Assembly: GCF_023276375.1 (NCBI RefSeq)
Contig: NZ_JALLPK010000001.1
Coordinates: 248,001-312,000, forward strand
Direction: 5' to 3'
Length of the DNA stretch: 64,000 nucleotides
Origin: Halocatena marina
GTDB lineage: Archaea; Halobacteriota; Halobacteria; Halobacteriales; Haloarculaceae
The position numbers and the translations under genes are program-made. The notes beneath the pieces were generated by a model, which saw nothing but the letters and a program-made list of their open reading frames with translations, was not told the origin of the DNA and searched no databases. Below are positions 25,720-29,819 of this stretch, piece by piece (within the stretch, counting starts at the first letter, position 1; the number at the start of each line of letters is the position of its first letter).

Positions 25720-26808
25720 TCAGTAGGATTCTTCTTCGACGAAACGTTCTGCGATGCGTTGTGCACCCCGTGCAGCGGCCGTAACGGGTTCTTCAGGCGC
25801 TGTGACTTTGACTTCATGTTGGAGTTCCTCACTGAGTCGATCTTCGAACTCTTCGACCAGTCCGGGGATGCACGCCATTCCTCCGGTCAGGACGATCGGT
25901 TCATCTAAGGTCTGTTTGTAGATCTTGATGTAACGGTTCGCCAGTTGTGGCAGGAAGTTGTTGGCGATTTCATCGACTGCGTCATCGACATATCGGTCGA
26001 GTGCGTCCGTCACACTGCGTTCGATGGTGAATTCGTGAGTGCCGCCACCAGGCTGTTGGATAATATCGGTGAACGGCTCGAAGTCGTTGAAGTCACCGTG
26101 TTGCTCTTTGTACTCTCGTGCAGTCGTCTGATCGATGTTTACCCGACCTTGTGTCTCTTCTTCGACGTAGTTAGAGATCCAGCGATCGACTTCATTACCT
26201 GTGACAGCACCGGTCGAAAAGCGCGAGAGTTGTTCACCCCGGCGGTACGCACAGGCTTCGAGATTCGTCGAACCCATGTTGATCGCGATGAAGATGCGTC
26301 CGATTGCGTCCAACCCGGTACCGATCGCCGGAATCGAACCACAGAGTGACTCGGGATAGCTCCGGATAAGCTTTGTACCAATGCCACTCTCTTCGATGAC
26401 GTTCGCCAGATTTGACAGCCCACGCTCGTTGTCAATCGTTGGGATTGCATAGACAACGACGCTGTCCTCCGAAACATCATTCGCTTGGATGAATTTATTG
26501 AAGAACGTCGCAGCTGCTTCTGCCCGCTCGTCGTCTTCTGGGAGGCCAGAACGGAGCATGAATTGGACTCGCTCGGGATACTCGTTCGCTGCCTCCTCTC
26601 CGTAGATGGCGCGTCGCTTACCGGTCAAAACGTCCTGATAGGTTGCGAGACACGTGAGTGCCTCGTGTGTTCGTATAACACTTCCCTGTGGTTGAACAAC
26701 AACCGTTCGGGTACTGCCAAGCTTAACGCCCACTGGAGAGAGGTTCGTTTCAGTTGTTTCCTCCTCCTCCTCCAATTCCTCATCGAGCATATCGTGCGAC
26801 TGTTTCAT
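25720..26808 (-). CDS. Actin/MreB-superfamily protein, volactin-like
   Basis: A 362-residue member of the actin-Hsp70-MreB fold. An acidic leader (about residues 7-20) precedes strand 1 (VGVKLGSTRTVVV), the phosphate-1 loop. The phosphate-2 region is IFIAINMGSTNLEACAY and the adenosine region is PIVLTGGMACIPGLVEEFEDRL, followed by AARGAQRI. It is long enough for a full filament-forming actin. Haloarchaea carry such homologues; volactin of Haloferax volcanii is linked to cell shape and motility. The next gene upstream on the same strand encodes an ArlD/E-domain protein. The volactin assignment is by overall pattern. Confidence 0.75.
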   Translation of the reverse strand: MKQSHDMLDEELEEEEETTETNLSPVGVKLGSTRTVVVQPQGSVIRTHEALTCLATYQDVLTGKRRAIYGEEAANEYPERVQFMLRSGLPEDDERAEAAATFFNKFIQANDVSEDSVVVYAIPTIDNERGLSNLANVIEESGIGTKLIRSYPESLCGSIPAIGTGLDAIGRIFIAINMGSTNLEACAYRRGEQLSRFSTGAVTGNEVDRWISNYVEEETQGRVNIDQTTAREYKEQHGDFNDFEPFTDIIQQPGGGTHEFTIERSVTDALDRYVDDAVDEIANNFLPQLANRYIKIYKQTLDEPIVLTGGMACIPGLVEEFEDRLSEELQHEVKVTAPEEPVTAAARGAQRIAERFVEEESY

Positions 26809-26978
26809 CTCCTGGTACTTAGCATCATCCGTCTAGTTCTGAATTTTTCGATCTTTTACACATACAGGTGTATGTATGAGAAATGCATCTATAACTATGA
26901 AAACAATAAAATTTCATATAGTATTAGAATGTGTGAGTAACGTACAATAACGTAAGAAAACCCCCGCGGATCGACCCG
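26809..26978. other. AT-rich spacer before the actin-like gene
   Basis: A 170-bp, strongly AT-rich gap between two minus-strand genes. It contains several TATA-like stretches (around 26880-26935), so the actin-like gene probably has its own promoter rather than depending on the ArlD/E-like gene. Confidence 0.4.
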
Positions 26979-28148
26979 TCAGTAGAAGACCATCCCCTCG
27001 GAGTTGACTGAGGCGATCTTAGCGATGTAAGCAAAACTCAGTAGGTGGTCACCACGGTCGAATACTTTGTATCCGTTGCCGTCGTAGTGGTCGTTCCAGC
27101 GTATTCGGTTTTGGAGGTCCTCTTCGACGCTTTTAGTGAACCAACCAATTTCGTGGTAGCGTTCGATTGCGTTGATCGCTCCTTCAGTTCCAGCTTCGTG
27201 TGTGAGAAACTCGAGCCAATCGCTGATAAACGCTCCTGCTGCCTCGGTCGAAATTCGCGTAAGGTAGGGCTTCTCACCGACCATCTCTGGGTCGATTCCT
27301 TCGAGTGTAAGCAATCGTTGATGTTGTTCTGGGGTCGGGTCCTCTATGCGTGACCGATGTTCTTCGGGGGGGTCGGACCAAACGAATCCGTGGACTTCGG
27401 TCTCTAACTCGTTCGAGAGATGATCGACGATATCACAATCAGAAATCGCTTGAAGCTCCGATATATCATAGTTAATCGGATCGATAGCAGTTTTGGCGTA
27501 CTGTTGTTCCTGTCCTCCATCATCCCCGTTTACGACGGATTGTTTGCCGGTTGTGTTTTCAGCAGATTGCCCATCAGCTGTGGTTTCAGTGTGTTGTTGT
27601 GTTGAACTGTCGCTGTTATGCGTTTCTGTATCCGATTGGATATCGTTGTTCAAGCCATTGTCATCCCACTTTTCGAACTTCGAGTCATTACTGTCCCACC
27701 CTTCGAACGATTCTGTTGGCTTTTCCTGCAATTGTGACTCTGATTCAGTCTCGGACAACGACTGTGACTGGGCTTCCGAGGCGGATTCATTGGTTGTGTT
27801 ACTCCACTGGAACCCAGGGCCGTTGTCTCCTGTCTGTTCCGATCTCTGATATGTAAACCCGCCATCAGAACTGTGTGTCGTTTGGTTCGATGCAGTATTT
27901 TTATCTAAATCAGTAATTTTCTCACCAGTGTTTTGAGATTGTGGCTTTTCTTTCGATTGTGTGTCTGATTGAGAAGATGTTGTGTTCTTGGTATCCTGCT
28001 GATGATCGGCGTCGTCTCCCTGACTTTCTGCCTCTGTCTCGTTTCTCACCCAAACGAATCCATGATTGTCGTCTCCGCTGTTCGACGTATCATCGATGCT
28101 CCTTTCACGGAGGTCCGACACGTCGTATCTGCTCGGATCGACGACCAT
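26979..28148 (-). CDS. ArlD/E (FlaD/E)-domain protein with long disordered repeat region
   Basis: A 389-residue protein. The C-terminal 100 residues match the archaellar protein D/E domain: KPYLTRIS (about 293), WLEFLTHEAGTEGAINAIER (311-330), YHEIGWFTKSVEEDL and the final DHLLSFAYIAKI. In archaella this domain belongs to ArlC/D/E adaptor proteins that link the motor to the chemotaxis switch. The rest is Ser/Thr/Gln/Asn/Asp-rich and probably disordered. Two related segments, DPSRYDVSDLR...HGFVW (4-33) and DPINYDISELQ...HGFVW (223-257), flank the disorder, with shorter GFTYQRS and GFQWSN elements in between. The ATG at 28148 is preferred to a GTG at 28151. No other archaellum gene is visible in the window. 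Confidence 0.78.
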   Translation of the reverse strand: MVVDPSRYDVSDLRERSIDDTSNSGDDNHGFVWVRNETEAESQGDDADHQQDTKNTTSSQSDTQSKEKPQSQNTGEKITDLDKNTASNQTTHSSDGGFTYQRSEQTGDNGPGFQWSNTTNESASEAQSQSLSETESESQLQEKPTESFEGWDSNDSKFEKWDDNGLNNDIQSDTETHNSDSSTQQHTETTADGQSAENTTGKQSVVNGDDGGQEQQYAKTAIDPINYDISELQAISDCDIVDHLSNELETEVHGFVWSDPPEEHRSRIEDPTPEQHQRLLTLEGIDPEMVGEKPYLTRISTEAAGAFISDWLEFLTHEAGTEGAINAIERYHEIGWFTKSVEEDLQNRIRWNDHYDGNGYKVFDRGDHLLSFAYIAKIASVNSEGMVFY

Positions 28149-28856
28149 CACCTTTCAAAGATAGTGGGTAACAACAGCACAACAATCTTTCTCCATCGAC
28201 TGACGAAGAATCCTTCATATCACAACTAATTAGTCAGTGGCTGTTATAATCTTACACCACCTTCGTATCGTGCCGAGTACTGTAGATGATGGCTGATGAC
28301 GATGAATACGACCCGAGCCGGATTCGGCACCCGGTGATGACGAACCCTATGAGTGCCGAGGCCATACCCCATGCTTTGATAGACTAATCGATTGTTCTCA
28401 ATTGATAATATGTATCCGTTCTTCTATAGGAGGATATATATCGTATCTATTTTGTATTTGTTCATTTTATTGTCAAATCAGTTCTGATGTCTTTGGTGAA
28501 TGTCTGGTCCGGAGTGGAAACGATCGAATCGGTGGATGTGTGGTTCTGGACACCGGAGGCGTTACTCACTGGATATACAGATACGACAAAAAACGGATCC
28601 GTCACAGCCTGCCAACACAGCTTTGAGGAGGGCTACGGATCATCACTATCGAACTGTTCGGTAAAAGTCCCGCGAACGTACTCGTTTTTCATTTCTATAT
28701 TCTCTATTGACCGAAGCTGACAGCCAGTACACGCCGCGATCCCCACTCACAACAGAAGATCGTCTCGTCGGCACTAGTGATTTGAACTGAGCTGTATCGT
28801 AGCAATTGAAAAAACAGTAACTATCGAACAATCCACAGACCGTTCGAATTTGGAAC
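28149..28856. other. AT-rich intergenic region with one tiny frame
   Basis: About 700 bases, AT-rich in 28150-28260 and 28385-28490, between the ArlD/E-like gene and the His/Lys repeat gene. It holds one short haloarchaeal-looking frame (28289-28387, listed separately). A plus-strand frame at 28487-28720 has no family resemblance and is treated as noise. No RNA gene was recognised. Confidence 0.4.
28289..28387 (+). CDS. Candidate 32-residue acidic microprotein or gene remnant
   Basis: ATG at 28289 (a second ATG lies one codon upstream), TAA at 28385-28387. The product begins MADDDEYDPSRIRHPVMTNP. The Asp-rich start and GC-rich codons stand out from the AT-rich surroundings, as a real haloarchaeal N-terminus would. 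It shares DPSR with the start of the divergent ArlD/E-like protein, which may be coincidence. It could be a microprotein or the stump of a lost gene. Confidence 0.3.
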   Translation: MADDDEYDPSRIRHPVMTNPMSAEAIPHALID

Positions 28857-29819
28857 CTAACAGTCTTCCTTATCTCGCTTTTTGTCGTGTTTCCGGTCGT
28901 CGTGTTTTTTGTCCCGCTTTTTGTCGTGTTTCCAATCGTCGTGTTTTTCGTCCCGCTTTTTGTCGTGTTTCCAATCGTCGTGTTTTTCGTCCCGCTTTTT
29001 GTCGTGTTTCCAATCGTCGTGTTTTTCGTCCCGCTTTTTGTCGTGTTTCCAATCGTCGTGTTTTTCGTCCCGCTTTTTGTCGTGTTTCCAATCGTCGTGT
29101 TTTTCGTCCCGCTTTTTGTCGTGTTTCCAATCGTCGTGTTTTTCGTCCCGCTTTTTGTCGTGTTTCCAATCGTCGTGTTTTTCGTCTCGCTTCTCGTCGT
29201 GTCTCACGTCAAGCTCTTCATTGCTTGCGTCGTGATCTTTGCCGTCTTTGCTGTCCCACTTCTTATCGTGTTCCCGGTCGTGTTTTTTGTCGTGCTTCCA
29301 GTCGCGATTACCGCTATCGCTGTTCGGACACCGGATGCGGAACCAGCAGATTCTCTTCTTTTCTCGCTTGTCTGCTTTAATTGTAGCACAGTAGGTACTA
29401 TCGACTGGCTCAGCGACGACTGGCTTGCGCTTTTTACAATGTTTGAACTTATCGCGCCAATCGTGGTCTGATTCTTCATCGTGTCGCTTCTTCTTGTGGG
29501 TCGCATACGAGACAGCGAATGGGAAATGTGCGTAGATTTTTACTTTCTTTTTATCTCCTTTGATCCGGAATCTGTCCGGTTTGGAATCATTGGTATCATT
29601 CCCGTTATCGTTGAGCACGTGATGGTTCCATTCCCCATCTTTGCGCACGTAAACGATGTCGAGATCCTTTGGGCACTTTTTCGTGTTAGTATCGTTGTCG
29701 TTATCCTCGCCATCGGTTGCAACGGTGACGCCTGTACCAATGCCACCGAGAGTAATGCCGGATACACCGAGCGCCTTTATCAAGTCTCTACGACTAACAG
29801 ATCGTTTGATACCCCTCAT
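28857..29819 (-). CDS. Tat-exported His/Lys/Asp repeat protein
   Basis: A 320-residue protein with a twin-arginine signal (SRRDLIKALGVSG, then a hydrophobic stretch to about residue 33). A globular part of about 130 residues follows, with five Cys (KKCPKD, FKHCKKR, TYCATI, RICWFRIRC). From about residue 205 the protein is tandem copies of the 13-residue unit HDKKRDEKHDDWK: seven nearly identical and one variant (KKHDDRK) before the end RDKEDC. The mature protein is rich in Lys, His and Asp and far more basic than haloarchaeal neighbours, which suggests metal, polyanion or DNA binding at the cell surface. I do not recognise the globular domain. The gene lies between AT-rich spacers and looks accessory. 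Confidence 0.75.
   Translation of the reverse strand: MRGIKRSVSRRDLIKALGVSGITLGGIGTGVTVATDGEDNDNDTNTKKCPKDLDIVYVRKDGEWNHHVLNDNGNDTNDSKPDRFRIKGDKKKVKIYAHFPFAVSYATHKKKRHDEESDHDWRDKFKHCKKRKPVVAEPVDSTYCATIKADKREKKRICWFRIRCPNSDSGNRDWKHDKKHDREHDKKWDSKDGKDHDASNEELDVRHDEKRDEKHDDWKHDKKRDEKHDDWKHDKKRDEKHDDWKHDKKRDEKHDDWKHDKKRDEKHDDWKHDKKRDEKHDDWKHDKKRDEKHDDWKHDKKRDKKHDDRKHDKKRDKEDC
28888..29199. repeat. 39-bp minisatellite, eight tandem units
   Basis: Eight head-to-tail 39-bp units lie inside the Tat-exported repeat gene. Seven are nearly identical at the DNA level, and the 3'-most one (in coding direction) has diverged. Because 39 is a multiple of 3, frames on both strands stay open through the array, producing long spurious ORFs opposite the gene. 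The identity at silent positions points to recent expansion by slippage or unequal recombination. Confidence 0.92.

Follow-up and report, generated by a model that had tools for sequence, protein, structure and literature searches.

The window analysed here, a 64,000-nucleotide stretch of the Halocatena marina genome (5.3 Mb, 7 contigs), carries two neighbouring genes on its minus strand: an ArlD-like gene (26979..28148, 389 aa) and, with its upstream end 170 bp from this gene, a salactin gene (25720..26808, 362 aa). The gap between them (26809..26978), read directly from the sequence, is A+T-rich. A whole-genome search also located a second, unlinked salactin at C1:988544-989548. The same pair is intact in 7/7 genomes of the window's genus. 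A GTG at 28151 gives a longer, 390-aa reading of the ArlD-like gene; members of the genus share the ATG at 28148 as its start. They also share the reading frame ahead of the probable start of salactin (26809-26870; TDDAKYQE[LM]K), which is either a longer salactin start or a conserved leader. Nearby, a minus-strand gene (28857-29819) contains 8.4 copies of a 39-bp unit (28876-29202, 97% matches); its product is Tat-signal-like and His/Lys/Asp-rich, has KHDDWKHDKKRDE repeats and gave no Pfam match.

The first-pass annotation had described the actin as volactin-like. We found instead that it matches the salactin profiles PF25229 (609 bits, cut-off 27.1, positions 2-335 of 335) and NF053533 (595 bits, cut-off 400), scores by which it is classed as a full-length, high-scoring salactin. 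Volactin (PF25216) was rejected as its identity at 31.9 bits, under the cut-off of 35. With the actin assigned to salactin and not to volactin, the shape and motility effects of volactin are not transferable to it. Salactin filaments are anchored at the pole and dynamically unstable, and in Halobacterium they extend out of the cell poles; the actin subfamily closest to it is, according to the same paper, MamK (PMC10746226).

The ArlD-like product, a salactin-linked protein of the kind that we term type 2, combines a disordered N-terminal part with a C-terminal ArlD/E module, and is thus related to the protein through which the archaeal swimming motor is linked to its steering system. That the C-terminal part of this 389-residue protein matches ArlD/E is borne out by a significant PF04659 (Arch_fla_DE) match (27012..27275, minus strand) that spans residues 293-380 when the 390-aa reading is used (E=3.8e-15; 56 bits, cut-off 21), compared with about 105 bits for canonical ArlD in Haloarcula. 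Ahead of the domain, the alignment contains a conserved stretch (27378..27485) in which the ArlD N-terminal motif, IDPINYDISEL, is followed by GFVW, and a copy of this stretch, VDPSRYDVSDLRERS ... GFVW, can be read from the translation close to the N-terminus (28050..28142). Compact type-2 proteins (L094, L098) present [IV]DP..YD..ELR, GF[LV]W, [IV][EQ]DPT.EQ and the domain in this order. The C-terminal module of the window protein has the same motif order, while the first two motifs recur once at its N-terminus, joined through the disordered arm. The GFxW elements noted in the first-pass annotation are copies of the GF[LV]W motif, which the compact relatives carry once. The P, Y and L of the ArlD motif are invariant in the alignment, and the motif is not specific to salactin-linked genes, since it is also found in the ArlD of Halobacterium and Natrialbaceae.

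In the full-length AlphaFold2 model, 208/388 residues have a pLDDT below 50, so that the model is usable for the C-terminal module only, where the PF04659 domain is all-helical; the N-terminal region has low confidence and is variable within the genus. A sequence search returned no solved structure related to the ArlD/E domain, and a fold search gave no credible match (best E 0.9). Between two closely related members of the genus, we obtained a dN of 0.021 and a dS of 0.82 for the C-terminal module, 0.013 and 0.45 for salactin, and 0.117 and 0.28 for the ArlD-like N-terminal part. Across genus comparisons the dN/dS of the C-terminal module is about 0.03 to 0.16 (Nei-Gojobori, with dS saturated in the widest comparisons). 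The C-terminal module is under strong purifying selection.

Conservation of the pair across haloarchaea

The adjacency extends well beyond this locus. Of 80 named salactin loci, 61, representing 34/41 genus labels, have an ArlD-type gene immediately upstream of salactin and in the same orientation, a count that is slightly low because Halobium salinum, which is linked, was filtered out of it. In the order-wide survey table a PF04659 gene takes this position at 47/73 salactin genes. As the genera are not independent and these two samples partly overlap, with some genus labels being MAG names, the counts show persistence, not probability. The same order in 61/80 salactin loci places the adjacency far above chance, and this recurrence rules out a local accident. 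The commonest neighbour family after it, a CheW protein, reaches 13/41 genus labels, and a ParA/MinD ATPase reaches 8/41. Furthermore, of the 561 pairings between linked genus labels, 147 have another neighbour family in common and 414 have none. The flanks thus mostly differ among linked genera, and what has been conserved is the pair. Its intergenic gap has a median of 78 bp across haloarchaea, with a 4-bp overlap in Halorubrum, and the pair is co-conserved across Haloarculaceae and Haloferacaceae.

Linkage is not universal. Salactin and ArlD genes lie apart in Halobacterium, several Natronomonas and some other genomes, and Natrialbaceae have ArlD within arl clusters without salactin, which indicates that neither protein always needs the other. 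The authors who discovered salactin described its synteny as poor, with no function readable from the neighbourhood (PMC10746226), and probably missed this context because Halobacterium is a lineage in which the two genes are apart.

None of the salactins retrieved from elsewhere in the phylum has a PF04659 gene next to it, which leaves a deep origin of the pairing unsupported; the pairing probably arose within haloarchaea. In one such non-haloarchaeal locus (L207:6270-8808, with L209 and L211 similar), salactin is followed by a coiled-coil gene and then by a MinD/ParA ATPase. Some other non-haloarchaeal salactins adjoin an archaeal prepilin peptidase, as in a family f25 genome where an archaeal type IV prepilin peptidase (PF06847) comes directly after salactin (L202:6968-8988).

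In a weak domain tree of 95 columns, the window gene falls apart from canonical ArlD, in the type-2 group (support 70/96). The other members, Natrinema gelatinilyticum, Haloglomus, the second pair of Haloplanus LUM.53 and some MAGs, all lie beside salactin, one of the type-2 genes (G167) adjoining it on the opposite strand. The salactin tree also groups the type-2 loci, with Halobacterium among them (93/97), and without Halobacterium the type-2 salactins are monophyletic in roughly half of the bootstrap replicates. The two gene trees agree for the type-2 group, the grouping in the domain tree being weak. Natrinema gelatinilyticum, a member of a different family, is nonetheless nearest to the window's genus in the salactin tree (98/95), a placement that points to transfer of the pair. 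Its genome contains no PF04659 gene besides the linked one and therefore no ArlCE. Haloplanus LUM.53 has two different pairs (L097, L163).

Relation to the archaellum and its loss in the genus

Across the order, salactin occurs together with archaellin. Among 243 genomes, salactin scores over the cut-off in 81 and archaellin is present in 174; 78/81 salactin genomes have archaellin (Fisher p=4e-11, uncorrected for relatedness). The three without it are an incomplete MAG and the two members of the window's genus in the sample.

Archaellated Haloarculaceae usually have two PF04659 genes, a short one beside salactin and a long ArlCE. A Haloarcula arl cluster (L077) runs from CheD to ArlCE with no separate ArlD between them, and accordingly the salactin-linked gene is the archaellum's ArlD, its only ArlD. 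The order in Haloferax larsenii is cheC-cheD-arlD-salactin. In SHR40 the salactin genes lie inside the arl cluster among ArlCE copies. Halobacterium salinarum carries its ArlD gene within the arl cluster and its salactin gene at another site.

Several further arrangements were observed around these loci. In SHR40 (L138:7446-15865), and also at L167, Halovenus carboxidivorans, two salactins alternate with several ArlCE copies within the arl cluster. The pair of Haloarculaceae has as divergent neighbours a ParA/MinD ATPase and a CheW protein whose N-terminus is long and acidic (L119:7241-9156). A family with no Pfam match (L119:11406-13016) recurs downstream of salactin at 26 loci under 9 genus labels. 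A further short PF04659 paralogue, which forms its own group, is found about 4 kb beyond salactin in Haloferax larsenii and relatives (L151:14937-15488).

Searching the whole window genome, we found no archaellin, no match to CheF (PF04283) and no PF04659 gene other than the one in the window. The first-pass annotation had seen no other archaellum gene in the window, and for these families the statement extends to the whole genome; its companion statement on chemotaxis genes holds for the neighbourhood and fails for the genome, where CheW is present elsewhere, as it is in 4/7 genomes of the genus. In Halocatena/Actinarchaeum as a whole, archaellin is found in 0/7 genomes, and each of the seven has a single PF04659 gene and no partner ArlCE. 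The ArlD/E protein is thus not a paralogue serving next to an archaellum, since this is the only PF04659 protein left in a genus whose archaellum is gone.

Salactin relatives place the genus with Halocatena pleomorpha and Actinarchaeum halophilum YIM 93972. According to Tang et al. 2023, this clade forms hyphae, has lost the archaellum, PilB3 pili and CetZ, and has expanded one MreB-like family (PMC10067837). In our view this expanded family is probably salactin. No retained ArlD is mentioned in the searched passages of that article. A hyphal link of the pair is circumstantial, and hyphae are known from members of the genus rather than from the window species.

Interpretation of the pair and comparison with known systems

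A functional linkage of salactin and the ArlD-type protein is well supported. An ArlD (FlaD)-GFP fusion in Haloferax volcanii is polar, with mobile foci, and independent of chemosensory arrays (PMC6509185). A polar ArlD, conserved beside a polar filament and retained after loss of the motor, is best explained as an adaptor or anchor of the filament. We therefore hypothesize that the ArlD-type protein forms a functional pair with salactin and is most likely its binding or polar-fixing adaptor, a reading that we hold with moderate confidence, with binding and anchoring themselves inferred. Salactin would polymerise out of the cell poles, where the adaptor would bind the actin or its polar base and fix, nucleate or couple the filament. 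In archaellated relatives the same ArlD is also part of the archaellum switch complex, and the actin would thus help to place or connect the motor at this site. The window's genus has lost the archaellum and kept the ArlD-like subunit alone, which would be a dedicated salactin adaptor, able to act without an archaellum and equipped with a long flexible N-terminal arm carrying extra copies of short motifs. What the data show is gene linkage, co-inheritance and selection; physical binding, polar anchoring and a part in hyphal growth or DNA partition are proposed.

The idea in the first-pass annotation of an adaptor tied to a polar or cytoskeletal filament keeps its functional tie, through the PF04659 match and the co-conservation, and gives up the identity of its actin, which is salactin. 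Its link to motility is unlikely in the window organism, whose archaellum is gone; a function at the pole or in the cytoskeleton is the better fit. The strongest published counter-argument to the adaptor comes from Halobacterium salinarum, where deleting salactin leaves motility and shape unchanged in rich medium (PMC10746226); the genes are unpaired there. A wider form of the adaptor reading would have ArlD-type proteins anchor salactin at the pole in all haloarchaea as a rule, with motor and filament on one polar base, and in Halocatena/Actinarchaeum would have this base freed to organise actin at poles or hyphal tips. We offer this extension tentatively and consider it unlikely as it stands.

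Alternatively, ArlD and salactin may share the pole without direct contact, being co-expressed because the motor and the filament both serve it, so that their adjacency reflects co-regulation only. The position of the Haloarculaceae pair, divergent from the ParA/MinD ATPase and CheW, and that of the Haloferax pair in a che cluster would fit such a polar or motility regulon. However, co-regulation with the archaellum fails to explain why an archaellum-less genus kept the pair and no other tested archaellum gene, nor why the pair is present in Natrinema gelatinilyticum without ArlCE, and we regard this explanation as rather improbable.

A role in chromosome partition is still less probable. It was proposed for Halobacterium that salactin moves DNA at low ploidy, and its deletion disturbs DNA distribution under low phosphate (PMC10746226). 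The ArlD-like protein would then be a polar landmark or cargo adaptor, and motility would be irrelevant in this lineage. The ParA-type ATPase that is a conserved neighbour in Haloarculaceae, the MinD/ParA ATPase encoded after salactin and a coiled-coil gene in several genomes outside haloarchaea, and the expected need of hyphae and spore chains for DNA partition are all consistent with it. However, the ParA gene adjoins CheW, which makes placement of chemoreceptors at least as likely as that of DNA, a Pfam search found no DNA-binding domain in the ArlD-like protein, and the corresponding gene of motile relatives is the archaellum's ArlD.

The notion that the ArlD-like gene is a decaying left-over of the lost archaellum, beside salactin by chance, could draw on its PF04659 score below that of canonical ArlD and on its long, variable N-terminus, but it is strongly disfavoured by a gene intact throughout the genus, by the low dN/dS of the C-terminal module and by compact, intact type-2 versions elsewhere. 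Equally remote is a passive ancestral gene order persisting through slow rearrangement alone: whole neighbourhoods are indeed conserved within Haloarcula, but across genera the pair stays while the flanks differ in most comparisons, Haloplanus LUM.53 has its two different pairs, and the pair occurs in a Natrialbaceae genome whose nearest salactins belong to another family.

Taken together, the conserved ArlD-salactin pair names a candidate partner for salactin, an actin without a known one, and links an actin of archaea with the polar machinery of archaellum and chemotaxis, with a bearing on the nature of the polar cap and on motor positioning. The retention of one switch-complex subunit in an archaellum-less lineage that includes hyphal species is a natural experiment separating its two roles. 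We found no report of an ArlD/FlaD-actin/salactin pair in the openly accessible literature searched, and the conserved actin-adaptor gene pair, with its archaellum-free version in the window, is apparently unreported there.

Among known systems, magnetotactic bacteria pair the actin filament of MamK with a dedicated adaptor. The likeness to salactin and the ArlD-like protein is one of working principle alone, and homology of the adaptors is not claimed. Volactin of Haloferax volcanii (PF25216) is, like the window actin, a haloarchaeal actin homologue, but its profile score against that of salactin makes it an unsuitable comparison. With the haloarchaeal ArlD (FlaD) of the ArlCDE switch complex, the window protein has in common PF04659 and the motif [IVL][ND]P..YD..ELR; it differs in the GF[LV]W before the domain and in an N-terminal disordered arm of about 200 residues with the second motif copy, and its gene is tied to salactin in a genome without ArlCE, CheF and archaellin. 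Salactin of Halobacterium salinarum (VNG0153C) belongs to the same family as the window actin (PF25229, NF053533). However, VNG0153C is an orphan with no ArlD-type neighbour, whereas the window salactin has such a neighbour and, in addition, a second, unlinked copy in its genome.
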